Shown piece by piece: positions 4,247-24,681 of a stretch of 25,000 nt of DNA; position 1 is the first letter of the stretch; each line of letters starts with the position of its first letter. Position numbers and translations under genes: made by a program. The stretch is from a virus. The DNA lies in the IMG/VR virus record IMGVR_UViG_3300000117_000226, positions 1 through 25,000 of that record. One strand, given 5' to 3'. The notes below the pieces were generated by a model. That model had not been told where the DNA came from and did no database searches. It saw only the letters and a list, made by a program, of their open reading frames with translations.

Positions 4247-4263
4247 AACACAAGGTTTCAAAA

Positions 4264-4455: not shown

Positions 4456-4761
4456 ATGGCTATTGAAAACGCAGCGGAAAGAGCCGCAATGCTTGCAGAT
4501 TTTGGGGTTACGGCAACCTATACAGCCGACGGAGGCAGCCCGAAAAGTATAACGGTAATTTTTGATCAGGCTTTTTTAGAGGCCGACGCAAACGGCAATG
4601 TAAAAGTTGAAAGCACAAATCCAATTGCTCTTTGCAGAACGGCAGACGTTAGCGACTCCGACCACGCAACAACAATTGTTATTTCAGGCACAACTTATAA
4701 TGTAGTTGGCGTTCAACCAGACGGAACGGGTTTTACGTTGTTAGTTTTAGAAACTCAGTAA
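4456..4761 (+). CDS. Head-tail joining protein (gpFII-like)
   Basis: This 101-aa protein has a beta-rich pattern ending T-T-Y-N-V-V-G-V-Q-P-D-G-T-G-F-T-L-L-V-L. That resembles the C-terminus of short head-tail attachment proteins such as lambda gpFII (117 aa) and its relatives, which bind the filled head and form the platform for the tail. The ATG follows the upstream stop with no gap, so translation probably depends on coupling or re-initiation. The place after capsid and before the tail genes is the expected one. The identity rests on the terminal motif, length and synteny. Confidence 0.65.
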   Translation: MAIENAAERAAMLADFGVTATYTADGGSPKSITVIFDQAFLEADANGNVKVESTNPIALCRTADVSDSDHATTIVISGTTYNVVGVQPDGTGFTLLVLETQ

Positions 4762-4776
4762 AAAGGTGGTTTTACT

Positions 4777-5517: not shown

Positions 5518-5521
5518 TTTT

Positions 5522-5962
5522 ATGGCGCATCTTAGAAAACAAATACGCGATCAAGTGATTACAACTTTAACGGGACTTGCGACAACTGGCACAAATGTTT
5601 TTAGATCCAGAGTTTATAACAACGAAGCGTCAAAGTTGCCTTGTCTTTGTGTTTACACTCTAAGCGAGAACATAGAAGACGCGACATTAAGCCCCGTTAA
5701 ATACGAAAGGGCCTTGGAATTAGCGGTTGAAGGCTATGCAAAAGCAACTAGCAATATAGATGATACACTCGATCAAATTGCTTTAGAAGTTGAAGAGGCT
5801 TTGGCCGCCGATTTAACGCTAAATTCGCTAGCGCTTGATTGTGCTTTGCAATCAACAGAGATAAATTTAATTGGCGATGGCGACCAGCCAATAGGGGCTA
5901 TTCGCTTAAGCTTTGAAATTCATTATAGAACAAGAGCCGACGACGTGGAAACGAGCGGCTAA
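5522..5962 (+). CDS. Tail terminator protein (gpU-like)
   Basis: This 146-aa protein opens with an R-K-Q-I-R-D-Q-V helix and a short R-V-Y pattern. The segment L-P-C-L-C-V-Y-T follows, and then the acidic helix D-D-T-L-D-Q-I-A-L-E-V-E-E-A. It ends in a beta strand, I-R-L-S-F-E-I-H-Y-R-T. This is the layout of tail terminators of the lambda gpU kind, which cap the tail tube and join it to the head. AAGGA lies shortly before ATG 5522. Its place just upstream of the tail tube gene agrees. Confidence 0.7.
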   Translation: MAHLRKQIRDQVITTLTGLATTGTNVFRSRVYNNEASKLPCLCVYTLSENIEDATLSPVKYERALELAVEGYAKATSNIDDTLDQIALEVEEALAADLTLNSLALDCALQSTEINLIGDGDQPIGAIRLSFEIHYRTRADDVETSG

Positions 5963-5980
5963 AAGTCATAGGGGGAAATC

Positions 5981-6373
5981 ATGGCTACTTTTCACGGAAA
6001 GGAAGGAACGGTATTAGTCGGATCAGACGCGGTTGCCGAAGTTAAAAGTTTTACTGTTACACAAACAGTAGAAACCGCTGATGATACAGTGATGGGCGAT
6101 ACTTGGAGAAGTCACAAAGCTGGCTTTAGATCCTGGAACGGTTCTTTAACTTGTAACTTTGACGATACCGACATAAACGGCCAAGAGGCTTTAACAGTTG
6201 GCGCTAGTGTTACCCTAAATCTTCAACCTGAAGGAAACACAACAGGGGATTATCTACTGACAGGAACAGCAACTATTACGGAAGTTACACAAACAAGTGA
6301 TAGTGAAGGCATTGTTGAGAGATCTTTTAATTTCTTGGGCAATGGCTCGCTAACAATATCAACCGTTTCATAA
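5981..6373 (+). CDS. Major tail tube protein
   Basis: This 130-aa protein is almost all beta. It opens with H-G-K-E-G-T-V-L-V-G, then S-F-T-V-T-Q-T-V-E-T-A-D-D-T-V-M-G-D-T-W. The segment S-W-N-G-S-L-T-C-N-F-D-D-T-D is typical of small siphovirus tube proteins that stack in hexameric rings around the tape measure. It lacks the extra C-terminal Ig domain of lambda gpV. AGGGGG precedes ATG 5981 at good spacing. The chaperone genes follow directly, as in other lambda-like phages. Confidence 0.82.
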   Translation: MATFHGKEGTVLVGSDAVAEVKSFTVTQTVETADDTVMGDTWRSHKAGFRSWNGSLTCNFDDTDINGQEALTVGASVTLNLQPEGNTTGDYLLTGTATITEVTQTSDSEGIVERSFNFLGNGSLTISTVS

Positions 6374-6384
6374 ACGAGGTTTAA

Positions 6385-6777
6385 ATGGCTGCAATCGACA
6401 ATGTAATTAAACACTTTGAAAACACCTATGAGAAAAAATCTTTTGAAGTTCCTGAGTGGGGGCCAGAAGGACAGCCGTTAAAAATCTTTGTTGAGCCGAT
6501 GACGCTTAAACAACAATCCGAAATCTTGGAATTAATACAAACCAAGGGAGCGGGCGCGGGCTTTGTGCATGCAATATGCACAAAAGCCCTAGATGAGAGC
6601 GGCAAAAGAATTTTTGCGGGCGATAAGCTTTTTTTGACGAACAAAGCCGATCCCGATTTAGTGATTGAAGTTGGTCAAAAGATTTGGAACCTTGCAAAAG
6701 GAAAAGATATTGACGCGCATTTGCAAAACTTAGATGAGGAATGCGAGGAAATTGTCGAAGAGCTTAAAAAAAAATAA
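6385..6777 (+). CDS. Tail assembly chaperone, G-type short product
   Basis: This 130-aa acidic protein lies between tail tube and tape measure, the fixed position of the lambda G/T chaperones, which hold the tape measure soluble during tail assembly. It reads F-E-V-P-E-W-G-P-E-G-Q-P-L-K-I-F-V-E-P-M-T, a pattern common in this group. It ends E-L-K-K-K immediately before TAA 6775-6777. GAGG lies upstream of ATG 6385. The last three codons are all AAA and form the slip site for the longer product. Confidence 0.78.
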   Translation: MAAIDNVIKHFENTYEKKSFEVPEWGPEGQPLKIFVEPMTLKQQSEILELIQTKGAGAGFVHAICTKALDESGKRIFAGDKLFLTNKADPDLVIEVGQKIWNLAKGKDIDAHLQNLDEECEEIVEELKKK

Positions 6778-6932
6778 GCAAGAATGAACGCTACTTATTC
6801 GGCGTTTTTCAACTTGCGGAATTTTTAAAAAAGCACCCTTCCGAAATTGTAGAAATGACAGTTTCAGAGTTTTACGCTTGGATAGCTTACTTTAAGGTTA
6901 AAGAAGACCATGGCAAGAAAAGATCAGCTTAA
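6385..6932 (+). CDS. Tail assembly chaperone, GT-type product by -1 frameshift
   Basis: A -1 slip on the A run at 6766-6774 moves translation into the frame that starts at 6774 and stays open to TAA 6930-6932. The 130 residues of G are extended by 52, giving about 182 aa. The added part reads L-F-G-V-F-Q-L-A-E-F-L-K-K-H-P-S-E-I-V and then T-V-S-E-F-Y-A-W-I-A-Y-F. That is the recognisable T-domain pattern of such chaperones. The extension has no usable start of its own, because a TAA in its frame lies at 6765-6767, just before the run. It overlaps the first 23 bases of the tape-measure gene. Family knowledge (lambda G/GT) and sequence agree well. Confidence 0.8.
6766..6777 (+). promoter_or_regulatory. 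Programmed -1 frameshift site (A9 then TAA)
   Basis: Nine A residues (6766-6774) are followed at once by the zero-frame stop TAA. A homopolymeric slippery run beside a stop codon permits -1 ribosomal slippage; polymerase slippage is also possible. Which mechanism works, and at what rate, cannot be read from the sequence. Confidence 0.75.
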
Positions 6933-8811
6933 GTTTACCGTTACAGCCATTGACAAGACAAAGGCAACCTTTAGAACTATTGGCATGGGCTTGAGCAAGC
7001 TTGGCGGTATTGCTAAAAGCGCAGGGCTTGCCGCTACCGGAGTCGGTGCAGCTTTTGCTTTTATGCTTAAGAAAACCGCCGATGGCATTGACGAGACGGG
7101 TAAATTGTCTAGGCAATTGGGGATGAGCGTTAAAGCGCTTGAAACTTTTAAGCATGCCGCAGAAATTGGCGGCTCTTCTTTAGATACTCTTGCAAGAGCA
7201 TCCAAACAGCTTTCAAAAAACACTTTAGATTTTGTGGTAAAGGGAACGGGTGAGGCGGCAGATTCATTTAAACTTTTAGGTTTAAGCGCGTCAGACTTGC
7301 GGCCCGTTATGAATGATTCAGTGGCTTTAATGTCACTTATTGGTGACAAGTTCAATGAGATGCCCGAAGGGGCCGTAAAGACCGCAGCCGCTTATAAGCT
7401 TTTTGGTTCAAGAGCTACCGAAATGATCAATGTTTTGGAAGGCGGCAGCCAAGCTTTTAACAAGTTTTCCGAAGATGCCGAACGTTTTGGCCTTGTTTTG
7501 GAAGAAAAACAAGTCAAAGCCGTTGAAAATGCCAATGATGAGCTTGTGAGATTTGGCGGCGTAATTCGAGGTATTGCCAAGCAAATGACAGCGGAGTTAT
7601 TTCCAAAAATTGGAGAGATAGCCACACAGTTAAGAGAAAAGATCTTAAAAAGCATTGAAAATTCTTACGGCAGTGTAAGAAATTTAGGGAAAGATTTAGC
7701 CGACCGCATTGCAGCAGCTTCCAAATTTGCAGCCCTTAACATTTTAAAAGCGGTTAAAGGAATAACTACGGGCATATTGACAATTACAAAAGCGATGACA
7801 ACGGCCCTAAACCTCTTTATTCAAGGCGTTGAAGAATTAGCAATTGCTTTGATGCCATTTAAAGAAATGTACGAAAAGGGCTTAACGGGTTTTTTCTTTG
7901 GTGGTGGTTTTGGTACAGGCGTAGAAGATCCAAGGCTTGAGCAGCAAGAGCGGCAAAAAAAGATTGCTCAAATGAGAAAAGGCACAATGGCAAAATCTCT
8001 AACGGGCATGGAACAAGGCATTGCTGAAAGCATAGAAAATACAAGCAGCTATTTTGATACAGCGTCTAAGTGGATAGAAGACTTTTCGCTAAAAGATGAA
8101 AAAGTTAGGGAGACTTCAAAGGTTGTTGGCGAACAACTCGAAAAAAATAAAACGACAATGGAGCAAACGCCAGCCGCGGCTAATGAAATTACAAATGCTC
8201 TTGAACGCATGAAAGGTTCCGCTGAAAAAGCGGGCGATATCATAGCTAACAATTTTGAAGACGCAATATTTAAAGCAAAATCTTTTGAAGATTCAATAAA
8301 ATCTATTGCCGATGAGCTTGCAAGATTAGCTTTTCGTGAAGCGGTGACAAAACCTTTTGCTGAATTTATATCTAGCTCCATTTCAGGCTTGATGAGTCCA
8401 GTTGATACAAAAGCGGCTTCTATTGCATCGGCTAAAGGTAATGCCTTTATGAGTGGTAAATTACTACCTTTTGCAAATGGCGGCATAGTTTCAACACCTA
8501 CAAGCTTTGCTCTTGCAGGCAGTCGGGGATTGATGGCCGAGGCTGGCAGCGAAGCAATTTTACCATTAAAGCGCTCATCAAGTGGTGTTTTGGGCGTAGA
8601 ATCTAGCGGTTCGGGTTCTAAAGTGTCAGTTAATATTATTGATCAAAGAAGTACAGGGGCAGCGGCGCAAGTTAGCGAAGAGCGCGGACAAGATGGCAGC
8701 CGAAGCATAAATGTAGTAATTCGCGACGAAGTAAAACGAGGTTTTGCCGAAGGCTCTTTTGACAAATCTTTGCGCGTTTTTGGAATAAGTAGAGGGGGCA
8801 TAAGACGATGA
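6910..8811 (+). CDS. Tail tape measure protein
   Basis: This 633-aa protein fixes tail length and is ejected into the host with the DNA. It has an N-terminal helical region with a Gly/Ala-rich hydrophobic stretch (about 33-55). Long heptad-like helices follow, including the D-E-T-G-K-L-S-R-Q-L-G-M-S segment typical of tape measures. Near the end comes the familiar F-A-N-G-G-I-V-S-T-P-T-S-F with G-L-M-A-E-A-G-S-E-A-I-L-P-L. Applying the usual rule of about 0.15 nm per residue suggests a tail near 95 nm (inference). The start overlaps the chaperone extension. The end overlaps the next gene by ATGA. Confidence 0.92.
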   Translation: MARKDQLKFTVTAIDKTKATFRTIGMGLSKLGGIAKSAGLAATGVGAAFAFMLKKTADGIDETGKLSRQLGMSVKALETFKHAAEIGGSSLDTLARASKQLSKNTLDFVVKGTGEAADSFKLLGLSASDLRPVMNDSVALMSLIGDKFNEMPEGAVKTAAAYKLFGSRATEMINVLEGGSQAFNKFSEDAERFGLVLEEKQVKAVENANDELVRFGGVIRGIAKQMTAELFPKIGEIATQLREKILKSIENSYGSVRNLGKDLADRIAAASKFAALNILKAVKGITTGILTITKAMTTALNLFIQGVEELAIALMPFKEMYEKGLTGFFFGGGFGTGVEDPRLEQQERQKKIAQMRKGTMAKSLTGMEQGIAESIENTSSYFDTASKWIEDFSLKDEKVRETSKVVGEQLEKNKTTMEQTPAAANEITNALERMKGSAEKAGDIIANNFEDAIFKAKSFEDSIKSIADELARLAFREAVTKPFAEFISSSISGLMSPVDTKAASIASAKGNAFMSGKLLPFANGGIVSTPTSFALAGSRGLMAEAGSEAILPLKRSSSGVLGVESSGSGSKVSVNIIDQRSTGAAAQVSEERGQDGSRSINVVIRDEVKRGFAEGSFDKSLRVFGISRGGIRR

Positions 8812-9152
8812 GCTGGCCAGGGACTTTACCCGTAGCAATAGCCGATGGCTATCAGGAAGTTTTTGCGGATAACACTATTCGCTCACAAATGGAAACGGGC
8901 TATCCAAAAGTTCGCAAGCGATCAACCGCAGCGCCTTCTATGCTAAGCTTAGTTTTTCACATGACAGCGGCACAAGTGACAACTTTAAACACTTTCTTTT
9001 CTACTACCCAAAACGACGGGGTAGATACCTTTACAATGACGCACCCAAGAACGGCTGTTACAGAAACTTTTCGCTTCTTAAGCGCGCCCGAAATTAGCAT
9101 TTCAAACGGTATTGACTACCGAGTAAGTATTAAGTTGGAGCAACTACCCTAA
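8808..9152 (+). CDS. Minor tail protein (gpM-like position)
   Basis: This 114-aa protein begins M-S-W-P-G-T-L-P and contains S-L-V-F-H-M-T-A-A-Q-V and the late pattern F-R-F-L-S-A-P-E-I-S. Short proteins like this follow the tape measure in lambda-like tails and form part of the distal tail or tip assembly (lambda gpM equivalent). AGAGGGGG at 8790-8797 lies 10 bases before ATG 8808, inside the end of the tape-measure gene. Overlaps of ATGA upstream and TAATG downstream point to coupled translation. Function comes from position and family pattern; no catalytic motif is seen. Confidence 0.65.
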   Translation: MSWPGTLPVAIADGYQEVFADNTIRSQMETGYPKVRKRSTAAPSMLSLVFHMTAAQVTTLNTFFSTTQNDGVDTFTMTHPRTAVTETFRFLSAPEISISNGIDYRVSIKLEQLP

Positions 9153-9625
9153 TGGCTAGATCACTTTCTACCACAGCTAAACAAGCCATTTTTTCACAAG
9201 AAACGAACGAAGTTTTCTTGATGATTATAGAAATTGATCATACCGATTTAGCAAGCCCGATCCGTGTTGTTAACAACTGGGAAAATATAACTAGCAACGG
9301 CAACCTTTACACAGCCTACCCTTTTCAATTTGCTTTACCTGGTGAAGATGGCGAGAGTATGGAACAGGTGCAGCTAACTATTAGCAATGTAGATAAACTT
9401 TTAGTTGAGGGTGTGCGCTCTATATCGAGTCCTTTGGATTTAACTTTAAACGTTATTTTGGCAAGCGATCCCGACACCATCGAGGCCGGGCCGTTTAATA
9501 TGAAAATTCGCAATGTCGAATATAACGCAGAAACGTTGACGGGAACTTGCATTTTTAATGATTTGCTAAACGAACCCTACCCTGCTGGAACTTATACACC
9601 CGCTGACTATCCAGGGCTTTTTTAA
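9152..9625 (+). CDS. DUF1833-like minor tail protein (gpL-like position)
   Basis: This 157-aa protein carries the DUF1833-type pattern: an N-terminal A-K-Q-A-I-F-S-Q-E-T-N-E-V-F-L-M-I-I-E-I, a central F-A-L-P-G-E-D-G-E-S-M segment, and a C-terminal region ending N-E-P-Y-P-A-G-T-Y-T-P. Members of this family sit before the NlpC/P60 peptidase and tip protein genes in many proteobacterial phages and are taken as tail-tip components. It overlaps the previous gene by one base (TAATG). The role in the tip complex is inferred from synteny. Confidence 0.72.
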   Translation: MARSLSTTAKQAIFSQETNEVFLMIIEIDHTDLASPIRVVNNWENITSNGNLYTAYPFQFALPGEDGESMEQVQLTISNVDKLLVEGVRSISSPLDLTLNVILASDPDTIEAGPFNMKIRNVEYNAETLTGTCIFNDLLNEPYPAGTYTPADYPGLF

Positions 9626-9674
9626 GTTTTTGAAACTTTTATCTTTTTCGTGACGCTACGGAAATGGTCGAAGA

Positions 9675-9692
9675 TGTAAAGCGGGTTTTACA
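9675..9692. repeat. Imperfect copy of the TGTAAAGC palindrome
   Basis: TGTAAA and TTTACA flank GCGGGT at 9675-9692. Seven of nine positions per half are symmetric. It lies in the 79-base gap before the peptidase gene, directly upstream of its SD. It resembles the palindromes at 10210 and 22593. Confidence 0.45.
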
Positions 9693-9704
9693 AAGGGGGG
9701 TAAA

Positions 9705-10115
9705 ATGCAAACTTTTTGGTTACAAGACTATATAGGCATCGAGTTCGAAGAACGCGGGCGCTTTAAAAAAGTAGATTGTTGGGGCTTATTTAGACGTGTT
9801 TACTGTGAAAGGTTTGGCGTTTTATTGCCAAGCTTTACAGACTACGAAAGTACAAAAGAGATTGAGCAAATAGCCAAAATTGTTAAAGGCAACGAAGACG
9901 AAGGCGGCTTCAAAGAAATACCTTTTGATAAGAGAGGCTTTGCAGATTTAATCCTTTTTCGAATCCAAGGCCAGCCCGTACACGTTGGATTGATTGTAAA
10001 TCATTATTTGATGTTACATATTGAAAAGGGTAAAAATTCTTGTTTAGAGAAGTACAAAACTGCCCGTTGGAAACCCCGAATTTATAAAGTTTTCAGACAT
10101 GAGAAGTTTTTATAA
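9705..10115 (+). CDS. NlpC/P60-type tail-tip peptidase (gpK C-terminal domain type)
   Basis: This 136-aa protein has D-C-W-G-L-F-R-R-V-Y with the likely nucleophile Cys25. G-F-A-D-L-I-L-F and H-V-G-L-I-V-N follow, with His93 as the probable second catalytic residue and His105 as a further candidate. These are the core motifs of NlpC/P60 cysteine peptidases that cut cell-wall peptides. In lambda gpK this domain follows a Mov34/JAB domain, which is absent here. A role in local wall opening during DNA injection is the usual interpretation. GGGGGG lies before ATG 9705. The stop overlaps the next start (TAATG). Confidence 0.8.
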   Translation: MQTFWLQDYIGIEFEERGRFKKVDCWGLFRRVYCERFGVLLPSFTDYESTKEIEQIAKIVKGNEDEGGFKEIPFDKRGFADLILFRIQGQPVHVGLIVNHYLMLHIEKGKNSCLEKYKTARWKPRIYKVFRHEKFL

Positions 10116-13100
10116 TGTCCGATGAAATCAAAGTTCAAACCTTGCCGCACCTTTTTTCTTACTATCGAGTAGAAAGTGCAGCGCCTGCAAAATCAAGAGT
10201 AAGCGACCTTGTAAAGCACGCTTTACATGACAAGCTTTTACAAAGTCACGCTAGTGTTTGGATATCGGACAAAGATTTTGAGCTTGATCCGCTTTATGTA
10301 AAGCCAGAAAACTTTGATACAACGATAGTAAAAGGCGATACAGTAGTTACCATCAAAGTTTGTCCCCAAGGCGGCGGCGGTGGCGGCAGTGGCAAAGACG
10401 TTTTAAGAATTGTTGCAACTGTCGCATTAATAGCCGTTGGCGCGCAATTTGGCGGTGCTGTTGGCGGCTTCATGGGCTTTAAAGCTACTACCGCGCAAAC
10501 TGTTGGAATGGCAACAATCATGACAGTTGGGCAATTTGCCGTTAATTCTCTTATTCCACCACCAAGAGCAAACTTTGATAGAGGCGGCAGCGATGTTAGA
10601 GAGTCCCCCACACTAAAAATTACAGGTTCACAAAACAACGCTAATCCTTACGGCGTAGTCCCTCGCGTTTTTGGTCGTTATAAAGTTTATCCCACACTTG
10701 CAGCGCAGCCCTACACTGAAATTTCAGGAAATGAGCAATACTTGCGCTTGCTCTTTGATTTTGGATATGGCGAGCTTCAGTTATCCGACCTAAAGATAGG
10801 AAATACAGACCTTTCCGACTTTGAAGACGTAGAAACAGAAATTCAATATGGCACAGGCGCGGAAAATGATTTTAAGCTTTATTCAACGGATATTAGTCCC
10901 GACCCCCAAAACATACTTGTTAGCGCATCAGGCGGCGCACAAACAATCACAACAGCCACAAATACAAATGAGGCCGTTATAGATGGCTATTTTGTCGGCA
11001 TGTTTGATTTTGACGCACAAGATAATTATTATCGCGATGCTACGGTACAAATAAAATATGAATACAAGCAAGTAGACGCTGGATCTTGGACAACTTACGC
11101 AACAAGAACCTATACCAACAACACAAAACAACAATGGTATGTTAGCGAAAGAATATCTTTTGCCAGTGCAGATCAATATGACATCCGCTTAACACGTTTA
11201 ACGGCTGATAGCGCCGTAGATACAAAAGTTGATCAATTTTATATTAGCAATTTAAAGAGCGTAAAACAAACAAGTCCGATCAACGTTTCAGGGCATTGCA
11301 TGGTAGCTATGAGAATAAAAGCCACCGATCAATTAAACGGCGTTGTCGATCAGTTCAACGCAATTGCACAAGCAAAGCTTGAAAAATGGAACGGCAGCGC
11401 ATGGACTAGCGCCGTGGCAACAAGAAATCCTGCATGGGCTTTTGCCGAAGTTTTAAGAGGAGCCGCAAACGCTAATCCCGTTGATGATAGTTTAATTGAT
11501 GGTGACGGTTTAAAAAATTGGGCAGACGCTTGCGACGCTTTAGCGCAAGATGGACAAGCTAAATGGCAATTTGACGCGGTTATTGATTATGGCACAACCG
11601 TTTTTGAGCTTTTAAGGGATATAGCAGCCGCAGGCCGAGCGTCTTTTGCAATGGTAGACGGCAAATATACAGTTGTTCGAGACATTGAACAATCAACGCC
11701 AGTTCAGCATTTCACACCAAGAAATAGTTTTGGCTTTTCTTCCGTTAAAGTTTTTAAAGAAGAGATACACGGCATAAAATGCCGATATATAGACCCAAGC
11801 CGCGATTATCAGCAGCAAGAAGTTATTGCTTATGATGACGGCTACAGCGCTGCAAACGCTAGTAAATTTGAAGCGATGCAAGTTTGGGGATGTACAAGCG
11901 AAAACCAAGCATGGAGAGAAGGCCGCTATCTTTTAGCGTCGGCAAGGTTAAGACCCGAAGTCTATAGCCTAACTTGTGATATTGAAAATCTTATTTGTAC
12001 AAGAGGCGACCTTGTAAAAGTTTTGCATGATGTAACAAGCATTGGGCAAAAGGGCGCTAGAATCAAAAGCGTAACAACAGACGGCGGCGGCGACGCAACG
12101 CATATCACGATTGACGAAGAAGTTACTATGTTAAGCGGTTTAACTTATAATGTAAGAATCCGAGCAAGTGACGGCACAAGCTCTTTGCATAGCGTAGTAA
12201 ATCCCGTAGATACCGTTACGCAACTAGAATTTACAACAGCCATACCAGCGGCAAGCATACCAGTCGCAGGCGACTTGATACAATTTGGCCAAACTAGTTT
12301 AGAAAGCGTAGATCTAATTGTTAAAAGTATTGAGCCAGGCTCAGATTTAAGCGCACGTTTAACACTTGTTGACGCAGCGCCAGCAATTTTAAGCGCCGAC
12401 ACTGGGAGCATACCCGCTTTTGATCCCAAAATAACAAATACACCACCAAGATTTAGGGCTTTGCCCGATACTCCCCATATACTACAGGTATATAGTGATG
12501 AAAACGCCTTAATCATAAATTCGGACGGCAGCACAACGCCGCAAATTATTATAGACATTGAGCCGCAAGATTTAGGAGCCAGTGTACAAAGAGAATTTAT
12601 TGAATATCGCTACAAAGCTAGCAATGAACAAAAATACAGAATGTTTAAATTGCCAGGCGACACGACTAGAATTTTTATTTTTCCCGTTTTGGAAAATGGA
12701 GTTTACGATTTAGGAGTTAGGGCCGTTTCGCACCCTGGCGAAGTTTCAGCGTGGAAAACTTATTTAAATTATGAAGTTGTAGGAAGATCAACAGCGCCCG
12801 CAGCTGTCCAAAACTTTGCAATTAATATTGTAGATACAACCGCTTATTTAACTTGGGACGCAAACACTGAAAGCGATCTAGATTATTACCAAATTAAGTT
12901 TACGACCAAAACAAGCGGACAAACTTTTGAAAATGGCATAGATCTTTTCCCTAGAATCCCAAAAACAATAACTGGCGTAACAAGTCCAGCGATGACGGGG
13001 ACTTATTTTATAAAAGCCGTTGACACTCTTGGGAAAAAATCCGTCACAGCAACAGAAATCACAACTATTTTTGAGTCGGTCAAAGATATTAACGTGATTG

Positions 13101-13873
13101 AAACGCAAACAGAAAGCCCGACATATCCAGGCAGCAAAACAAATTGTATAGTCTCAGATGGGTATCTAAAGCTCGACAACTCGACGCTTTGGGACGATAT
13201 GATTGGGAATATGGACGACTGGCTAGGGCTTTTAGATGCTGGACAAGGCAGCGTTTACAGTTCGGGAACTTATGAGTTTGAAAATCCCGTTGATTTGGGC
13301 AGCGTTTACACAAGCCGAGTTACTTCTAATATTGATCAATTCGCAATTGACTACGCAAACAGTTTTGATTCTCTACAAGGTTTGTTAGATCAATTAGAGG
13401 GCAATTGGGACGATTTAAACACCACTACAGCGCCCGATGTTAACGTAAAATTACAAGTGGCTTTAACCGATGACGACCCAAGCGGCACGCCTACATGGTC
13501 CGCATGGCAAGATTTCTTTGTTGGGGAATACAGAGCGCGCGGCTTGAAATTTAGAGCGCAACTAATATCAAATAACGTTTATCAAACGCCAAGAATTGAA
13601 ACTCTATCCGTTACAGTTGATATGCCCGACAGAGTAGACGGCGCAAGCGATTTATCAAGCGGCGCTGGAGCTTATGCAATTACCTATTCACCAGCTTTTA
13701 AAAGCGTCAAAGCGATAGGGATAGCTTTACAAGACGGCCAGCAAGGGGACTACTACGAGATAACTAGCAAGTCGACTACTGGCTTTACAATAACATTTAA
13801 AAATTCGCTAGGTACAGCCGTAGACCGCACGTTTGATTGGTCAACTATCGGCTATGGACACCTGGCAAGCTAA
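10115..13873 (+). CDS. Host-specificity / tail tip protein (TipJ, lambda gpJ type)
   Basis: This 1252-aa protein is the largest in the window and forms the central tip that contacts the host receptor. Residues 1-88 look like a ubiquitin-like beta domain. They are followed by a Gly run and a long hydrophobic Ala/Gly segment (about 98-150), as in TipJ proteins, where an I-like domain is joined to J. Next come N-P-Y-G-V-V-P-R-V-F-G and F-D-F-G-Y-G-E-L, then N-P-A-W-A-F-A-E-V-L-R-G-A, all typical of the J core. One or two fibronectin III-like domains occupy about 790-970 (A-Y-L-T-W-D-A-N). The C-terminal 250 residues are beta-rich and are the likely receptor-binding part. It is about the same size as lambda gpJ (1132 aa). 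Confidence 0.9.
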   Translation: MSDEIKVQTLPHLFSYYRVESAAPAKSRVSDLVKHALHDKLLQSHASVWISDKDFELDPLYVKPENFDTTIVKGDTVVTIKVCPQGGGGGGSGKDVLRIVATVALIAVGAQFGGAVGGFMGFKATTAQTVGMATIMTVGQFAVNSLIPPPRANFDRGGSDVRESPTLKITGSQNNANPYGVVPRVFGRYKVYPTLAAQPYTEISGNEQYLRLLFDFGYGELQLSDLKIGNTDLSDFEDVETEIQYGTGAENDFKLYSTDISPDPQNILVSASGGAQTITTATNTNEAVIDGYFVGMFDFDAQDNYYRDATVQIKYEYKQVDAGSWTTYATRTYTNNTKQQWYVSERISFASADQYDIRLTRLTADSAVDTKVDQFYISNLKSVKQTSPINVSGHCMVAMRIKATDQLNGVVDQFNAIAQAKLEKWNGSAWTSAVATRNPAWAFAEVLRGAANANPVDDSLIDGDGLKNWADACDALAQDGQAKWQFDAVIDYGTTVFELLRDIAAAGRASFAMVDGKYTVVRDIEQSTPVQHFTPRNSFGFSSVKVFKEEIHGIKCRYIDPSRDYQQQEVIAYDDGYSAANASKFEAMQVWGCTSENQAWREGRYLLASARLRPEVYSLTCDIENLICTRGDLVKVLHDVTSIGQKGARIKSVTTDGGGDATHITIDEEVTMLSGLTYNVRIRASDGTSSLHSVVNPVDTVTQLEFTTAIPAASIPVAGDLIQFGQTSLESVDLIVKSIEPGSDLSARLTLVDAAPAILSADTGSIPAFDPKITNTPPRFRALPDTPHILQVYSDENALIINSDGSTTPQIIIDIEPQDLGASVQREFIEYRYKASNEQKYRMFKLPGDTTRIFIFPVLENGVYDLGVRAVSHPGEVSAWKTYLNYEVVGRSTAPAAVQNFAINIVDTTAYLTWDANTESDLDYYQIKFTTKTSGQTFENGIDLFPRIPKTITGVTSPAMTGTYFIKAVDTLGKKSVTATEITTIFESVKDINVIETQTESPTYPGSKTNCIVSDGYLKLDNSTLWDDMIGNMDDWLGLLDAGQGSVYSSGTYEFENPVDLGSVYTSRVTSNIDQFAIDYANSFDSLQGLLDQLEGNWDDLNTTTAPDVNVKLQVALTDDDPSGTPTWSAWQDFFVGEYRARGLKFRAQLISNNVYQTPRIETLSVTVDMPDRVDGASDLSSGAGAYAITYSPAFKSVKAIGIALQDGQQGDYYEITSKSTTGFTITFKNSLGTAVDRTFDWSTIGYGHLAS
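10210..10227. repeat. Near-perfect TGTAAAGC palindrome inside the tip gene
   Basis: TGTAAAGCACGCTTTACA at 10210-10227 has one asymmetric position pair. The identity to the 22593 copy reaches a few bases beyond both ends. It lies about 100 bases into the tip gene, in codons for L-V-K-H-A-L-H. Confidence 0.55.
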
Positions 13874-13887
13874 AGGGGAAAAATATC

Positions 13888-15234
13888 ATGGCGCAACATG
13901 ACTACAACATAGCAAATGACGGAGCAGCCGCCGTGCGCTCTGATATCAACAACGCTTTGAGCGCAATTGTTAGCAACAATTCAGGCGCTACAGAGCCAAG
14001 CACAATGTTTGCTTATCAATATTGGTATGACACAAGCACCAACATTTTAAAGCAAAGAAATAGCGCCAACGACGCTTGGATAAGTATTTTTGAACTTGAT
14101 CAAACAGGGGATTTAGTTGCCGATCTAACAACTACAGATTTAACCGTATCTAGAGCATTAACTAATAGCGCAATGCGCTTAATACCTGGACACGTTGAAA
14201 ACCTATCAATGAGCCTATCAGCCGGCGTTTTAACGCTTAAAGGTGGAGATGGTAACGATTTATCAGCCACTAACCCCGCTTATGTTTGCACCCTTTCAAA
14301 TGTTACCGATGGAAAGCCAATATTACACACAATCACAAGCAATCAGACTTTAACCGAGGGTGACATTGACAATAACTTGTTGGGCTTTCTCACAAGCGTT
14401 GCTGTTCCAACAGATGTTACTTTAGGCGTTTATCTTGTCGCAAACGATAGCGACGCATCCCCAACTTTTATGATAAGCCGAAATCTTTTTGCAAAAATAA
14501 CACCCGCCGCCGCAAATATTGGCGCACCAGATGATTCAGTAGCCGACGCGTTTGGAGATTTTTTTAGTTTTAGCAACATTGACGAAGCAACCTATAACGG
14601 CAACGCTTGCGAGCTAGTCGGCTTAATCCGCGCTCAAATGGACGCTACCGACGCTTGGACAATTCAAGCATTGGACAATGAAAAAGACGGTTTTGGAAAA
14701 AAACCAAAATGCGAAGAAGGAGACTGGGAGTTTATTTCTAAATCTGAAGCTAGCACAGATGCCAGCATTGATATTGCACTTCCTATTCAATACAAAAGTT
14801 TTAAAATCGTTATGGACGGTATAGACGCGGACACGTCAGGAGGTGATTTATATTTAAGGTTCTCAAATGATAATGGCGCTACTTTTGAAACTACCTCATA
14901 TATCTATGAGCATGCGAGGATTGTAGGAGGTTCTCAAACAAACAACTCGGCAAGCTCTGCTTCTCAAATTTTAATTGCAGAAAATGATAGAGCTAATGGA
15001 GATGGAATTTATGGTGAGATTATTTTATATAACACAGATGATGCTTCAAATAACACTTATTTAACAAGTAGATCTACCCACACAGGAACGGGCGGGACAG
15101 CTTATAATTATGAAACCCATTTGGGCGCAAGAAGAGGAGCTAACGAAATCACCGATGCCGTTAGGTTCTTATTCTCATCTGGAAATGTTCAGGGTGGTAA
15201 ATTTTATTTATACGGAATGAAGGAAACAACATAA
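13888..15234 (+). CDS. Tail fibre / receptor-contact protein
   Basis: This 448-aa protein starts at ATG 13888 rather than the upstream in-frame 13837, because AAGGGG at 13873-13878 is well spaced and 13837 lies deep inside the tip gene. The N-terminus (H-D-Y-N-I-A-N-D-G-A-A-A-V-R-S-D-I-N) and F-A-Y-Q-Y-W-Y-D-T-S-T match the attachment modules of many environmental phage fibres. The middle (about 110-280) and the C-terminal beta-rich domain (about 285-448) have no motif I recognise. The C-terminal domain is likely the variable host-contact part. Its location right after the tip gene fits a side or accessory tip fibre. Confidence 0.78.
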   Translation: MAQHDYNIANDGAAAVRSDINNALSAIVSNNSGATEPSTMFAYQYWYDTSTNILKQRNSANDAWISIFELDQTGDLVADLTTTDLTVSRALTNSAMRLIPGHVENLSMSLSAGVLTLKGGDGNDLSATNPAYVCTLSNVTDGKPILHTITSNQTLTEGDIDNNLLGFLTSVAVPTDVTLGVYLVANDSDASPTFMISRNLFAKITPAAANIGAPDDSVADAFGDFFSFSNIDEATYNGNACELVGLIRAQMDATDAWTIQALDNEKDGFGKKPKCEEGDWEFISKSEASTDASIDIALPIQYKSFKIVMDGIDADTSGGDLYLRFSNDNGATFETTSYIYEHARIVGGSQTNNSASSASQILIAENDRANGDGIYGEIILYNTDDASNNTYLTSRSTHTGTGGTAYNYETHLGARRGANEITDAVRFLFSSGNVQGGKFYLYGMKETT

Positions 15235-15623: not shown

Positions 15624-16352
15624 TTATTTCTGCTTTTCTTTAGCAAGCTTTAGAAATTTCACGCTTTCATCAAATTTTGAGGCAAGTAAGTTGCCCATAT
15701 TCAAAATACCGTGGTAGTCTAAAAAGCGCTGCATCAAGTCTTGATCATCTTTAATGATGGATAGCAAAGCGGAGATTTGGGAATTATTTACCCGTTTATC
15801 GTCCGCTTGCTCAAAACTTGCAGCGCTTGCAATTTCTTGGTTTTCAAGGCCAGCAAGCTCACCAGGGAAGGCTTTTTTCAAAGCATTGGTTTCGGCGCAT
15901 TTAGATAACATTGTAAGCGGCTTAGATGCCCAAAACTGTGTCGGCGTACCGTCTTTTTTAGTTTGTACGCTCTCAGAATAAAAAACCGTGGCGCTAACTT
16001 CGTGCCAAGTTCCATCAGGTGTTAGCTTTTTAACAAAAGCCGTAGCGCTAAATGGCTTGTTATCTTTGGTAAACTTAAATTCTGTCTCTTTTCCTGGCGC
16101 ATACTTGCCCGTTCGATCAGCAATAAGCCTATACCCATCAATTCCAATTTGAACGCTCATAACATTTGCATTAATGCTCTTGTCGAAGCGTTTAACGGCG
16201 TAAATTTGCTTTAAAACAGGATCAAGGCCAGTTCGCTTGCAAGCATGCAAAAAAAGCTCTAATTCGTCGTTTGTAGCGTCCTTGCAAACTGTGTTTTTAA
16301 TTAATTCTATTTTTGAGGGAGTGAAGTTTTGCTCTTTGACAAGTTCGCCCAT
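15624..16352 (-). CDS. RecT/Bet-family single-strand annealing protein
   Basis: This is a 242-aa protein. The start at 16352 (MGELVKEQ) is preferred over 16388 because AAGGG at a spacing of 7 precedes it. It shows the Bet pattern: N-D-E-L-E-L-F-L-H-A-C-K-R-T-G-L-D-P near residue 30, then Q-I-G-I-D-G-Y-R-L-I-A-D-R-T-G, and later W-A-S-K-P-L-T-M-L-S-K-C-A-E-T-N-A-L-K-K-A-F-P. These proteins anneal complementary single strands in phage recombination and normally work with a 5'-3' exonuclease; none is seen nearby. The length fits (lambda Bet is 261 aa). It is transcribed against the late operon, with a 5-base gap between the convergent stops. Confidence 0.92.
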   Translation of the reverse strand: MGELVKEQNFTPSKIELIKNTVCKDATNDELELFLHACKRTGLDPVLKQIYAVKRFDKSINANVMSVQIGIDGYRLIADRTGKYAPGKETEFKFTKDNKPFSATAFVKKLTPDGTWHEVSATVFYSESVQTKKDGTPTQFWASKPLTMLSKCAETNALKKAFPGELAGLENQEIASAASFEQADDKRVNNSQISALLSIIKDDQDLMQRFLDYHGILNMGNLLASKFDESVKFLKLAKEKQK

Positions 16353-16415
16353 TTTGCGGCCCTTAATTAATTTGTTAAAGGGATACATCCTAACATTTTA
16401 AAATTTATTTTTGGC

Positions 16416-18693: not shown

Positions 18694-20094
18694 TTGTCTC
18701 AAGAAAAACCACATTTTACATTTCCTGATGAAGTGCCCATTTATGGCCACGTTGCAATGAACCCTAATCTGTGCCCAGATGCAAAAATATTTTTTGGAGT
18801 ATTAAGCGTTTTATCTGCTGCAACAAACCGTGTTTATGGATCAAACAAACAATTTGCAAAGCTAATGAATAAAGACGAGAGAACCATTCAAAGATATTTT
18901 GAAGATTTTGAAAACTTTAATTTACTTGATCGCGATATAAAAAACGTTCTAGTTTCAGAATCAAAGGAAGTTGAAGAAAAGAAATTTAACTGGGTAGTGG
19001 AAAGGGATCTTTTTATAAATCCCAATCCACACCAAGAATTTTTAGACACTTATGAAATACTATACAATCAAGGATATTTTTTTCCACGATTGATTGTCAT
19101 TCCCAAAGAAATAGCCCAAAATAAAAAAATAAAAGGCAAAGCCAAATTGCTTTACGGTTTTCTCAAATCGCGTAGCTATTACGATGGCTATACAAAGGAT
19201 TTAGACGATAAGATTGCAAAATTTTTAGGCGTAAGTGTTAGGGCCGTCCAAGCCTTACTCAAATGCCTTGAAAAGTTTAAACTCATTAGTCGGGAAACTA
19301 GGAAAACATTTACAAAAATAAAAGATAAGATGGGAAACCCAGTTAAAGACGAAAACGGAAAAATAAAATACGAAGTAAAAACCACAAGAAAAACTTACGT
19401 CCACCGAATTTGTTCAAATATTTCTTGCCAGGGTGACAAAACGTGCGTTGAGGAAAAAGCCGTTCAAATAATTTTACCGACCACGACAAAAACGTGCGTT
19501 TACGACCACGACAAAATGTGCGTTCATGACCACGACAAAATGTGCGTATATAATATTAAAACTAATGAAAAAGAACTAACAAACCAGAAAACGCCGCCAA
19601 AGGCTCAAAAAGTCTCGAAAGCCAAAGCACCCGATTCGGGTTTTGTTGGTTTTTCTGAAAAGCAAAAGACAATCGAAAATCTAAAGCTTAGTGTATCGCA
19701 AAAGCGAACAATCCTTAAGCATTCGAAAAGCATGGATCTTGAGTTTTTTAAAAGCCAGGTGGCAAAATTTGCCGATTATGCAAAAAGCAATCACGTAACA
19801 AACCATTTTGGCCTTTTACGGTCCGTTCTTGGCCTAGATGGAAAGCCAGCCTGGGAAGATGCTAAGCCAAAAGATCAAGGAAGCATAGAAGAGCAAAACA
19901 GAGAAGCTGCAATAGAAAAGCTTGGCGTTTACGATGGAAAACCGATTAAAGGCTTGTCTTTTGAAATCTTGAACTCTCATTGCCAGTTTACAAACGGAAC
20001 TTTTGCCCAAATTTTTGAGTTTAAGAATTATGATTTTGTGCCGCGTATTAACGAGTTTTTAGAGCGATTAGGGCTTAATGTTTGTTTTGGCTGA
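18694..20094 (+). CDS. Replication initiator with two winged-helix segments (lambda O-like in role)
   Basis: This 466-aa protein has a TTG start (18694), fixed by the perfect AAGGAG at 18681-18686 with 7-base spacing. Residues 10-85 form a winged helix (Y-G-S-N-K-Q-F-A-K-L-M-N-K-D-E-R-T-I-Q-R-Y-F). Residues 130-205 form a second one (D-D-K-I-A-K-F-L-G-V-S-V-R-A-V-Q-A-L-L). Residues 205-300 are a basic, Cys-containing linker whose codons carry DNA iterons. From about 320 a helical C-terminal part follows, ending in F-V-P-R-I-N-E-F-L-E-R-L. Tandem winged helices are typical of Rep initiators. The intragenic iterons suggest a lambda O-like role, recruiting host or phage helicase, though no helicase or loader gene is seen nearby. 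Confidence 0.82.
   Translation: MSQEKPHFTFPDEVPIYGHVAMNPNLCPDAKIFFGVLSVLSAATNRVYGSNKQFAKLMNKDERTIQRYFEDFENFNLLDRDIKNVLVSESKEVEEKKFNWVVERDLFINPNPHQEFLDTYEILYNQGYFFPRLIVIPKEIAQNKKIKGKAKLLYGFLKSRSYYDGYTKDLDDKIAKFLGVSVRAVQALLKCLEKFKLISRETRKTFTKIKDKMGNPVKDENGKIKYEVKTTRKTYVHRICSNISCQGDKTCVEEKAVQIILPTTTKTCVYDHDKMCVHDHDKMCVYNIKTNEKELTNQKTPPKAQKVSKAKAPDSGFVGFSEKQKTIENLKLSVSQKRTILKHSKSMDLEFFKSQVAKFADYAKSNHVTNHFGLLRSVLGLDGKPAWEDAKPKDQGSIEEQNREAAIEKLGVYDGKPIKGLSFEILNSHCQFTNGTFAQIFEFKNYDFVPRINEFLERLGLNVCFG
19435..19600 (+). repeat. Four iterons and AT-rich DNA: candidate replication origin
   Basis: GACAAAAnGTGCGTT-type units lie at 19435-19449, 19485-19500, 19510-19524 and 19534-19548. The last three share a longer block starting GACCACGACAAAA at 19479, 19504 and 19528. 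Each unit is an imperfect dyad (ACGACA with TGTGCGT). AT-rich DNA follows from 19548 (TATATAATATTAAAA). Unit 2 has one extra A, so its bases are read in another frame from units 3 and 4, yet the DNA is conserved. This arrangement mirrors the lambda origin inside O. Confidence 0.75.
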
Positions 20095-20178
20095 AAAGTT
20101 TGAGTCTTTTACTTTAAGCGCTTTTAAGCTATCGTTTTGGCTTTAATTTTAAAAAAAGATCAGCTATTGTTTTGGCTT
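20084..20178. repeat. Three GTTTTGGCT repeats after the replication gene
   Basis: GTTTTGGCT occurs at 20084, 20134 and 20169. The last two belong to a 17-bp repeat, AGCTAT(C/T)GTTTTGGCTT, at 20127-20143 and 20162-20178, 35 bases apart. The first spans the end of the replication gene. An inverted repeat TTGAGCAA/TTGCTCAA (20177-20184 and 20217-20224) follows. Function unknown. Confidence 0.45.
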
Positions 20179-21087: not shown

Positions 21088-21411
21088 ATGTCTACTTGGC
21101 GAAGAACAAAATTTAACGCTCAAGCTTGTTTTGAAGATGGCTTGCGATTCGACTCTAAAAAAGAGGCCGCATATTACAAGCGTTTAAAGCTTTTAAAAAA
21201 AGCCACCCATGATAGCGACCGTGTAGACTTCTTTTTAAGGCAAGTTCCCTTTGATCTTCCAGGCGGCATCAAATACCGCGTCGATTTCCAGGTTTTTTAT
21301 TGTGACGGGCGCATTGAGTTTGTAGATGTCAAGGGCTTTGAGACCAAAGAGTTTAAAATGAAAAAAAGAATGGTAGAAAATCTTTACCCCGTGGAAATTA
21401 TCATAGTATGA
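21088..21411 (+). CDS. DUF1064-family nuclease-like protein
   Basis: This 107-aa protein has the DUF1064 pattern: F-D-S-K-K-E-A-A-Y-Y near residue 22, F-F-L-R-Q-V-P-F-D-L-P-G-G near 50, then Y-R-V-D-F-Q-V-F and E-F-V-D-V-K-G. The Glu, Asp and D-V-K arrangement looks like a PD-(D/E)XK nuclease core, consistent with a Holliday-junction or branch-cutting role proposed for such phage proteins. The start has no good SD, so initiation may be weak. The stop overlaps the next start by ATGA. The nuclease role is inference from the motif; no partner recombinase is adjacent. Confidence 0.82.
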   Translation: MSTWRRTKFNAQACFEDGLRFDSKKEAAYYKRLKLLKKATHDSDRVDFFLRQVPFDLPGGIKYRVDFQVFYCDGRIEFVDVKGFETKEFKMKKRMVENLYPVEIIIV

Positions 21412-21986: not shown

Positions 21987-22583
21987 ATGCAAATTAAAGT
22001 TAAGTCAAATTTAAAGGGTTTTTCACGCTGGATGCAATCAATTCACAAAAAACAAGTGCCATTTGCTACTATGTTGGCCCTTAATGACACAGCATTTTAT
22101 GCGCGCAATAAAATTGTTAAAGAAACTTATCCAGAAGCTTTTGAATTAAAAATAAAGCGCTTTCCCGCTCTTGTTACAAGAGTTAAAAAAGCTAGCAAGA
22201 AAAAGCTAGAGGCGCAAGTTGGTGATTTGAAAAAGATTGGCTTGAGTTTTTTATCGCTACATGAAGAGGGTGGAACAAAACTACCCTACGGGCGATCAAT
22301 TGCTATTCCTATCGGCAAAAATGAAAACAAACGTAATTTGAGAAAAAAGAACCCACCAACAAAGGTTATGGCCGAAAAAGGTTTTATCATTAAGACAAAG
22401 ACAGGCAAGCGTGTGATGTTTAAACGAAAAGGTGAAAAGCTAGAGCCGCAATATTTGCTTGTGCCTAAAGCGGTAATTCGTAAAGCGCTAGATTTTTACA
22501 AAGACGGACAACAAGCGGTACAAGCGGTTTTTCAAAAAAACTTTGAAAACAGGTTTTACAGAGCGATACAAACGGCGAAGTAA
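21987..22583 (+). CDS. Virion morphogenesis / minor tail protein Z-like
   Basis: This 198-aa protein starts at ATG 21987, supported by AAGGGGG at 21974-21980; the in-frame 21936 lies within the preceding gene. It reads V-P-F-A-T-M-L-A-L-N-D-T-A near residue 24 and S-L-H-E-E-G-G-T-K-L-P near 90. A Lys/Arg-rich middle and L-V-P-K-A-V-I-R-K near 160 follow. This pattern is typical of phage structural proteins of the gpZ or virion-morphogenesis type, which help tail completion or head-tail joining. It lies far from the other structural genes, which is odd unless the genome is circular and the window's right end leads into the terminase region. Confidence 0.62.
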   Translation: MQIKVKSNLKGFSRWMQSIHKKQVPFATMLALNDTAFYARNKIVKETYPEAFELKIKRFPALVTRVKKASKKKLEAQVGDLKKIGLSFLSLHEEGGTKLPYGRSIAIPIGKNENKRNLRKKNPPTKVMAEKGFIIKTKTGKRVMFKRKGEKLEPQYLLVPKAVIRKALDFYKDGQQAVQAVFQKNFENRFYRAIQTAK

Positions 22584-22592
22584 AGGGTCACT

Positions 22593-22610
22593 TGTAAAGC
22601 GCGCTTTACA
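22593..22610. repeat. Perfect 18-bp palindrome before the sugar gene cassette
   Basis: TGTAAAGCGCGCTTTACA at 22593-22610 is fully symmetric. It fills the 43-base gap between the Z-like gene and the dehydratase gene, 16 bases before its ATG. Related copies lie at 9675 and 10210. It could be a dimeric repressor site. Confidence 0.65.
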
Positions 22611-22626
22611 TCTAAAAAAGGAAACT

Positions 22627-23607
22627 ATGAAACGAATTCTAATCACAGGTGGAACGGGAACTTTAGGACACGCGCTAACAAAAGAGCTTTTAAAAAGAAA
22701 AGACCTTGAGCGCTTAATAATTTTTTCTCGTGATGAGCTAAAGCAAGAACGCATGTGTGAACATTTTCAAGACCAGCGCTTGCGTTTTGTTTTGGGAGAT
22801 GTAAGAGATAAAAAAAGCATTATTCGGGCGCTTGATAGAGTAGATGCGATCATTCATGCCGCCGCTTTAAAACGCGTTGCAAATGGCGATCTTTTTCCGC
22901 ATGAGTATTTTAAAACCAATGTCGAAGGCGTGCGCAATGTTTTGGAAGTTTGCGAAGAAAGTTTTATCGAGCGCGCTCTTTTGGTTTCGACCGACAAAGC
23001 CGTGGAACCCGTTAACACTTACGGAGCAACAAAGCTTTTTGGCGAGCGGCTTTGGAAGTTGCAAGCCAAGCAAGGCGGCGCTTTTGCTATTGTTCGCTAT
23101 GGCAATGTTTTGGCTAGCAATGGATCAGTGCTTCAAAAGTGGAAAGAAAAGATCAAAAAACAAGAAAACCATTATATAGCGCAGAATTGCTCAAGGTTTT
23201 GGATTACACAAAGCGCCGCGGCTAGGTTTTGTTTAAAGGCGCTTGAGCTTGCTACGGGTGGCGAAGTCTTTGTAAAGCCAAGCATAGCCTTAACTAATGA
23301 AGAGCTTTACAAAATCTTTTGTGGAGATACTGGGCTTGCATGGCTATCGACCAAGAACCCTGGAGAAAAAAACCATGAATGCTTAGTAGGAATAAATGAA
23401 GAGCCAAACGTTTTCAGCATTCAAGACTTTTTTGTTTTGCTGGAAGACGTACAAAAAGAAAAGCTGGATTATTGGCAACTTAAAAGCGCTATTTACAACG
23501 AAAACGAAAGCACAGTGAAAAATTTGCCTATCAGTTCAAAATATTTCCTCTTAAGCGATGATGAGAAAAAACAAAAAGTTAAAGAGTTAATTGATGCAGT
23601 CGCTTAA
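22627..23607 (+). CDS. Sugar-nucleotide 4,6-dehydratase, PseB/FlaA1 type (extended SDR)
   Basis: This is a 326-aa protein (PseB is about 334). ATG 22627 (MKRILITGG) is chosen because AAAGG lies just upstream and residue 1 then matches the Rossmann start; the longer ORF from 22543 runs through the palindrome. The NADP-binding T-G-G-T-G-T-L-G is at 7-14, F-S-R-D-E-L-K-Q at 33-40, G-D-V-R-D at 57-61 and H-A-A-A-L-K at 77-82. Asp123, Lys124, Tyr132 and Lys136 have exactly the spacing of the FlaA1 catalytic residues (Asp132, Lys133, Tyr141, Lys145). The family removes water from UDP-GlcNAc, the first step to pseudaminic acid and related sugars. A phage copy may alter host surface sugars or decorate the virion. 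Confidence 0.88.
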   Translation: MKRILITGGTGTLGHALTKELLKRKDLERLIIFSRDELKQERMCEHFQDQRLRFVLGDVRDKKSIIRALDRVDAIIHAAALKRVANGDLFPHEYFKTNVEGVRNVLEVCEESFIERALLVSTDKAVEPVNTYGATKLFGERLWKLQAKQGGAFAIVRYGNVLASNGSVLQKWKEKIKKQENHYIAQNCSRFWITQSAAARFCLKALELATGGEVFVKPSIALTNEELYKIFCGDTGLAWLSTKNPGEKNHECLVGINEEPNVFSIQDFFVLLEDVQKEKLDYWQLKSAIYNENESTVKNLPISSKYFLLSDDEKKQKVKELIDAVA

Positions 23608-24127
23608 CCAATTTAAAGAAGCTGGCAATTTTAAAAAGTTGAGCGCCGCTATTTTAGCGCCAGGGCAAAGCCTTGTCCGCGATATTTACAGTTTACCGCC
23701 TGCAGATATTATAATAGGCTTGAATCATCATATTCTAATTTTAAAGCCTGATTGGATTGTTTGCTTAGACAAGCACACAAAAGAACTATTAAAACATTTT
23801 AAGGGCCTCGTTTTTGCCAAACATGATTTTGCCGATGTTGACATAGGGCAAGCTCCAAGTTTCGGTTTTACAGGAGCCGCCGCCGTTTGGCTTGCCGATT
23901 ATTTAGAATTTGGTGAAATCACGCTAGCAGGCTTTGATTGCTATTTAGAAAACGTGCGATCTTATTGGCACGATTCAACAGCCGTAACAAAGCCGCATCT
24001 TAAAACAAGTACAGATCAGCAAATGATTATTTGGCAAACTGTAAAAGCATCACTCAAAAAACCCGAAAACATTAAAACCTTCCCAGGCTTTCTCTCAAAA
24101 TTTTTTAAAGAAGTGGACGCATGTTGA
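23594..24127 (+). CDS. Rossmann-like protein, MptE/DUF115-type, paralogue 1
   Basis: This 177-aa protein starts at ATG 23594, inside the end of the dehydratase gene (14-base overlap). The first strand and loop read A-A-I-L-A-P-G-Q-S-L. Then come I-I-G-L-N-H-H, W-I-V-C-L-D-K and A-A-V-W-L-A-D-Y-L-E-F, followed by I-T-L-A-G-F-D-C-Y and Y-W-H-D. This layout recalls the MptE-like/DUF115 fold, found in sugar transfer and pterin enzymes, and phage proteins near terminase genes. It is homologous to the next gene along nearly its whole length. Overlap with a sugar enzyme gene suggests a joint carbohydrate role, but substrate and activity are unknown. Confidence 0.68.
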   Translation: MQSLNQFKEAGNFKKLSAAILAPGQSLVRDIYSLPPADIIIGLNHHILILKPDWIVCLDKHTKELLKHFKGLVFAKHDFADVDIGQAPSFGFTGAAAVWLADYLEFGEITLAGFDCYLENVRSYWHDSTAVTKPHLKTSTDQQMIIWQTVKASLKKPENIKTFPGFLSKFFKEVDAC

Positions 24128-24681
24128 AATTAGATGAGTTTTACGAACAAGAATTTCTAAAGCGCTCGATGCCTTTTGGGGCGGGTAGATGCGCCTTAAT
24201 TATGGAAGGGGGAACTTGTCTAACTCAAGATCTTTTACAACGTCCACGCGGTGCAAACGTGATTGCAATTGCAATAAACCATCATTGCAATATTTTATTT
24301 CCAGAATTTGCAGTTGCGGAAGATCCAGAACTTGCAAATCTAGTTAAAGATTCACCCAGCACTAAAATTTTTGGACGGCATAAATTAGCGGATATTGATA
24401 TAGCAGGCGCGCTAAATTGGAATGATAGCGGCATAAATGCCGTTTGGCTTGCCGACTATTTAGAATTTGATCAAATAGTTTTAGCTGGCTTTGATTGCTC
24501 TACTAATCATACCCGAAATTATTGGCATGATAAAGAGTATGCAAAATCACGGCGTGTTAAAAAAGATCATTTGGAAGTTTTGGAAATATGGCAGGATTTA
24601 AAAGACAACTTATGTAATCCGCAAAATGTTTACAGCATATCGTTAGAATTAAAACATATCTTCAAAGAGTGGAAGGTTTAA
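24121..24681 (+). CDS. Rossmann-like protein, MptE/DUF115-type, paralogue 2
   Basis: This 186-aa protein overlaps the previous stop by 7 bases; AAGAAGTGG precedes ATG 24121. It shares with its neighbour I-A-I-N-H-H, D-I-D-I-A-G, A-V-W-L-A-D-Y-L-E-F, L-A-G-F-D-C and the R-x-Y-W-H-D motif. The N-terminal loop differs (M-E-G-G-T-C-L instead of A-P-G-Q-S-L). V-A-E-D-P-E replaces C-L-D-K-H-T, so the likely ligand pocket has diverged. This is tandem duplication followed by divergence. A role linked to the dehydratase or, by position, to the packaging region cannot be settled here. Confidence 0.66.
   Translation: MLKLDEFYEQEFLKRSMPFGAGRCALIMEGGTCLTQDLLQRPRGANVIAIAINHHCNILFPEFAVAEDPELANLVKDSPSTKIFGRHKLADIDIAGALNWNDSGINAVWLADYLEFDQIVLAGFDCSTNHTRNYWHDKEYAKSRRVKKDHLEVLEIWQDLKDNLCNPQNVYSISLELKHIFKEWKV

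Follow-up and report, generated by a model that had tools for sequence, protein, structure and literature searches.

Four short palindromic repeats in the middle of a replication initiator gene, together with the AT-rich stretch that follows them, probably form the replication origin of a siphophage; the probability of this reading was put at about 85%. The window analysed is a whole virus record of 25,000 bases, and the gene (18694..20094, + strand, TTG start) encodes a protein of 466 amino acids. The repeats are read as initiator-binding iterons and the AT-rich stretch as a DNA-unwinding element, from which we infer that the initiator binds here, that the DNA melts and that replication starts at this site. 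Such an intragenic iteron origin had been predicted beforehand from the sequence, and it was supported by the initiator families recognised, the codon shuffles, a linker predicted to be disordered, the AT-rich stretch and the recurrence of the same plan in related initiators. Iterons placed inside the initiator gene are an already known kind of phage origin; of more interest are the larger iteron family and the apparent recognition code to which the window led.

The repeat units were located at the predicted positions, starting at 19435 (GACAAAACGTGCGTT), 19485 (GACAAAAACGTGCGTT), 19510 (GACAAAATGTGCGTT) and 19534 (GACAAAATGTGCGTA), with start-to-start spacings of 50, 25 and 24 bases. All of them lie in the part of the gene coding for the linker of the initiator, and their consensus is GACAAAA(A)YGTGCGT. 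The complete iterons, all on the + strand, extend over 19433..19448 (GTG-ACAAAACGTG-CGT), 19483..19499 (ACG-ACAAAAACGTG-CGT, with an extra A), 19508..19523 (ACG-ACAAAATGTG-CGT) and 19532..19547 (ACG-ACAAAATGTG-CGT). They are inverted repeats of 16–17 bp with a 3+10+3 layout in units 3 and 4 and a 3+11+3 layout in unit 2; the arms are complementary in units 2–4 and only in part in unit 1, which is partly degenerate.

No other unit with up to two mismatches was found in the 25-kb record, and a single site with three mismatches occurs elsewhere in it. This distribution speaks against the repeats being a secondary initiator site or a stalling site, as oriR of SPP1 is, with the main origin in the missing terminase region or elsewhere. 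Such an arrangement would fit a record that lacks the terminase genes, and in SPP1 gp38 binds two origins (PMC6316719), so it was given a probability, the lowest among the alternatives considered, of only a few in a hundred.

The original prediction had also held that unit 2, with its extra A, is read in another frame while the repeat is kept. This was borne out for the left half, since GACAAAA lies in frame 2 in unit 2, against frame 0 in the other three units, and GACCACGACAAAA encodes D-H-D-K in units 3 and 4 but T-T-T-K in unit 2. It did not hold for the right half, GTGCGT, which has the same frame in all four units. The frame argument is therefore weaker than first stated, and a protein-level share of the repeat is possible. 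The codon-shuffle test is independent of the frame argument. With protein and codon usage fixed, four units appeared in 0 of 20,000 synonymous shuffles and three units in 14, and GACCACGACAAAA, present three times in the gene, appeared at most twice in any shuffle, in agreement with the predicted selection on the DNA rather than on the protein.

These data bear directly on whether the repeat could be a matter of the protein alone, namely a recent tandem duplication of the linker peptide D-H-D-K-M-C-V, perhaps for metal binding or as slack, with no role for the DNA. The right halves, all in one frame, encode TCV or MCV, the spacing of 24 is a multiple of three, and units 3 and 4 are nearly identical, as a duplication would produce. 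However, the codon choice is constrained beyond what the protein demands, the left half of unit 2 is kept even though it codes there for TTTK in place of DHDK, disorder is predicted for the stretch, and most arrays in related initiators are in mixed frames. A duplicated peptide was accordingly considered very unlikely, although it was rated the highest of the alternatives.

The AT-rich DNA predicted after the repeats was found at 19546..19585 (+ strand), where the AT content is 80%, within the top 2.1% of all 40-mers in the record; in the first 20 bp past the last unit, AT is 26 points over the gene mean. This stretch is the proposed DNA-unwinding element. At least three regularly spaced repeats inside an initiator gene (here with spacings of 50, 25 and 24), kept as DNA and with an AT-rich neighbour, are among the features that define this class of origin, and these three are present in the window. 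The turning point of GC skew expected near 19500 was absent, the cumulative skew showing no reversal and staying flat between about 14 and 20.5 kb. Phage GC skew often follows gene direction. The flat skew gives no support to an origin, though for a phage it is not decisive.

The protein belongs to known initiator families, with 43.2 bits against HTH_36 (PF13730; curated cut-off 25) and an E-value of 4.7e-13 against phrog_270, 'replication initiation protein'. It consists of two winged-helix domains, a predicted disordered linker and a C-terminal domain. Using an HMM built from other initiators, with the window left out, copy 1 (aa 20–80, 18751..18933, + strand, recognition helix DERTIQR) scored 38.0 bits and copy 2 (aa 135–204, 19096..19305, + strand, with a wing to about aa 236) 36.8 bits. 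An AlphaFold2 (AF2) model obtained without an alignment was discarded (pLDDT 31). In the model retained, only copy 2 was modelled well, with a mean pLDDT mostly of 87–98 over aa 131–240, and copy 1 had low confidence. The tandem winged helices of Rep type that had been predicted are thus tandem as stated, but they are two copies of one HTH_36/RepA_N-like domain and not of the Rep_3 type. Neither Rep_3 plasmid initiators (PF01051) nor Lambda O (PF04492) gave a match in the window at E up to 0.1.

The best PDB matches of the modelled copy 2 were 4pql, 4pt7, 4pta and 5kbj (Z 10.2–10.7, rmsd 3.1–6.2 over 88–109 residues), which, judged by the entry titles and by the Schumacher 2014 work that PMC5703833 cites, come from RepA_N plasmid initiators; they are DNA-binding domains, a Rep–DNA complex among them. 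DnaD (2v79) was also among the structural matches. The fold resembles RepA_N, while the RepA_N family itself (PF06970) scored 13.2 bits (E 0.087), below its cut-off of 30. Between the confident winged helix (about aa 131–243) and a C-terminal part of moderate confidence, the linker segment encoded by the iterons (aa 248–285) has a pLDDT below 50. As this linker is predicted to be disordered, it would tolerate the iterons in whatever reading frame they happen to lie. The C-terminal domain (about aa 334–460, 19693..20073, + strand) is modelled as helices with moderate confidence and had no family match in the Pfam search.

In the proposed mechanism, the winged-helix part of the initiator would bind the iterons in its own gene, and binding to the row of iterons would bend the DNA and melt the adjoining AT-rich stretch. 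The C-terminal domain might then bring in the host helicase or primase. This recruitment was proposed because neither a helicase nor a loader gene could be recognised in the record; Pfam and PHROGs searches likewise recognised no primase gene.

Structural genes for portal, capsid and tail fill roughly the first 15.2 kb of the record. The portal shares about 42% identity with its counterpart in Roseobacter phage CRP-406, and the structural genes follow a similar order (window 1–15234). The replication module is unlike that of the Roseobacter phages, which have a primase/helicase or a RepA-family helicase, whereas the window has the initiator with its putative origin and RecT. On this side of the record are found the RecT annealing protein (15624–16388, minus strand) and a DUF1064/Holliday-junction-resolvase-like gene (21088–21411). 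Just downstream of the initiator gene, at 20127–20178, an imperfect direct repeat, AGCTATYGTTTTGGCTT, occurs twice, 35 bp apart. The region 22543–24681, which follows a minor tail gene near the end of the record, encodes a nucleotide-sugar epimerase/dehydratase (Polysacc_synt_2, 2e-60) and then two similar proteins of about 180 aa, both without a Pfam match and with a common WLADYLEF...AGFDC...YWHD stretch; these genes are likely sugar-modification cargo.

The only relatives of the window gene were about 99.6% identical over the shared part, and the one contig covering the gene was identical across its whole length. No divergent homologue of the protein was found in the phages, plasmids and genome contigs searched, and a search run without a positive control returned no direct relatives in 369 and 385 genomes of the classes to which a Legionella and a Pelagibacterales genome with matching loci belong, respectively. 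Matches to the exact unit elsewhere were also discarded: single or paired ACAAAAYGTGC in viral contigs lay in tail genes or were scattered chance sites, except in the near-identical contig and in contig L049. Since no divergent homologue was found, the recurrence of the core in other initiators was examined instead.

Three copies of ACAAAAAYGT with gaps of 8–38 bases occurred in 117 stretches of viral contigs, compared with 6 for the complemented control word. Bacterial and archaeal genomes contained 108 such stretches. Of the 80 loci kept from each set, 58 viral and 21 genome loci had an initiator ORF spanning the array, in every case on the same strand as the array. By record titles, the genome loci covered by an initiator are from Bacillota, Bacteroidota, Spirochaetota, Planctomycetota and Actinomycetota. 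Most of the other genome loci are of a different nature, for example repeats within long coding genes or short ORFs, and the motif therefore also occurs outside initiators. The units occupy more than one frame in 42 of the 56 non-redundant initiator genes. The flanks are complementary in 229, 152 and 139 of 238 units (71 genes) at arm positions 1, 2 and 3, where base frequencies predict 165, 78 and 68, and no complementarity was seen at position 4. The site is therefore a 16-bp palindrome, N3-ACAAAAAYGT-N3'.

The class so defined has three exact cores with complementary arms. In the window, the exact core is present in unit 2 only, and units 1, 3 and 4 carry the variant core ACAAAAYGTG, so that the window is a variant and not an exact member of the class. 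Repeats were also seen in a sample of 27 related initiators that had not been chosen by motif, some of them with truncated ORFs: 12 had at least three repeats in excess of those produced by codon shuffling, the frames were mixed in 6 of these 12, and the repeat sequences were of many different kinds.

Past the last unit of ACAAAAAYGT arrays, examined in 70 initiators, AT content is 9 points over the gene mean in the first 20 bp and peaks at 20.8 points over it at 20–40 bp, with no AT peak elsewhere within 300 bp on either side of the arrays. A downstream AT peak of this origin kind counts against the repeats serving gene control or incompatibility, by binding the initiator or another phage regulator, rather than the start of replication. 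The winged-helix domains do resemble MarR/CRP-type regulators in fold, and repeats within a gene could block transcription. Nevertheless, arrays recur at the same place in initiators, and the relatives of this plan that have been mapped are origins. A regulatory role was consequently held to be improbable, slightly more so than the duplicated peptide.

Several other candidates did not define the family. The four-A core alone does not serve as a marker, because triple ACAAAANGTG gave 39 stretches that were mostly AACAAAACGTGAAC arrays outside HTH_36 ORFs. Pairing of the tandem domain with an asymmetric iteron was dropped, as the outer arms ACG and CGT are complementary. The rep gene of pPR9, a reported pfam13730 hybrid, had no ACAAAAAYGT unit and no clear match to the class HMM. 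Many viral contigs contain AACAAAACGTGAAC(A/G) arrays spaced 22–30 bp, mostly outside recognisable HTH_36 genes, which may be origin or operator arrays of another kind. In the Paraprevotella MAG RGIG8997, CACAAAAATGTAC units 22 bp apart occur on at least six contigs outside long ORFs, as a dispersed chromosomal array, and similar arrays with 35-bp spacing were seen at four loci of the Lachnospiraceae MAG RGIG8306.

The outer arm base varies with one residue of the recognition helix, column 51 of the HMM (R of R-T-I-x-R). Among 52 non-redundant initiators, this residue is Arg or Lys in 43/43 of those with G as the outer arm base, and it is another residue in 7/9 of those with A, C or T. For all 79 genes, Arg or Lys was found in 63/63 with G and in 3/16 without it. 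About seven arm-base changes are needed on the tree of the short winged-helix domain; since this tree is poorly supported, the number of independent changes is uncertain, and a sign test on them lacks power. The window behaves as the rule predicts, with Arg at column 51 of either copy and G as the outer arm base of each of the four units. At column 55, the second conserved Arg, copy 1 has Arg and copy 2 has Ala, and copy 1 may thus be the main reader of the site.

What appears to be new is the ACAAAAAYGT site family itself, which is found repeatedly in phages and in bacteria from several phyla and seems to be read by one identifiable amino acid; our literature search found no paper joining this motif to iterons. 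In its full form, the proposal is that HTH_36 phage initiators from at least five bacterial phyla carry one palindromic iteron, N3-ACAAAAAYGT-N3', in their own genes and in any frame, the outer base pair being read by a single recognition-helix residue (Arg or Lys for G; Val, Ile or Asn for A), and that the window represents a variant with a duplicated domain and a core changed to ACAAAAYGTG. The odds are judged to be slightly in favour of this general rule. Origins of uncultured phages could be found from sequence alone, by searching the linkers of winged-helix initiators for palindromic arrays that lie out of frame and have an adjoining AT peak. The covariation between residue and base would provide a specificity code, open to testing, for initiators of a widespread class, with a bearing on which replicons can coexist and on how replication modules are swapped.

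The plan of the window resembles that of known intragenic origins. Lambda O is a mapped or genetically supported precedent (PMC5043065), and the predicted likeness to the lambda origin was confirmed: four dyad iterons with an A-rich centre lie in gene O in different frames, adjoining about 40 bp of AT-rich DNA. As also predicted, the iteron sequence is another one (CCCTCAAAACGAGGG in lambda), and the window has no PF04492 match. In SPP1 oriL, within gene 38 (PMC6316719), and in the 80alpha ORF20 origin (PMC5499656), which likewise have been mapped or have genetic support, direct repeats and an AT-rich unwinding element are similarly found within the initiator gene, the comparison with SPP1 being drawn from its published description. 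Both phages have their own helicase loader genes, whereas none was recognised in the window record, and the 80alpha repeat sequence differs. In ORF20 (5675–5900 of the sequence compared), repeats coding for NVGKTVNGKT (GGAAAAACCGTTAAYGGTAAA) are followed by a long ACTAATAAT run; this layout of iterons plus AT-rich DNA, within the annotated putative origin, is as in the window.

Among plasmids, the origin of pSK41 has been mapped inside repA, with four boxes mid-gene in a linker reported to be dispensable (PMC5703833). The boxes, TGTCAAAAGGACA, are 23 bp apart in frames 1, 0, 2 and 1 and form a dyad around an A-tract. pSK41 RepA is a RepA_N initiator with boxes inside its own gene, as in the window, and among solved structures the modelled winged helix was closest to RepA_N; the window differs in having two winged-helix copies, another box sequence and a RepA_N Pfam score below the cut-off. 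In Leuconostoc phage LLC-1, GACAAAAACGTC occurs four times in the replication gene, once out of frame. In comparison with LLC-1-type HTH_36 initiators, the window has the core ACAAAAYGTG in three of four units, the domain twice and low overall sequence identity, but it shares with them the domain family, the site in the linker, the spacing of 22–25, a dyad unit beginning with GACAAAA, Arg at the base-reading position and the AT-rich neighbour.
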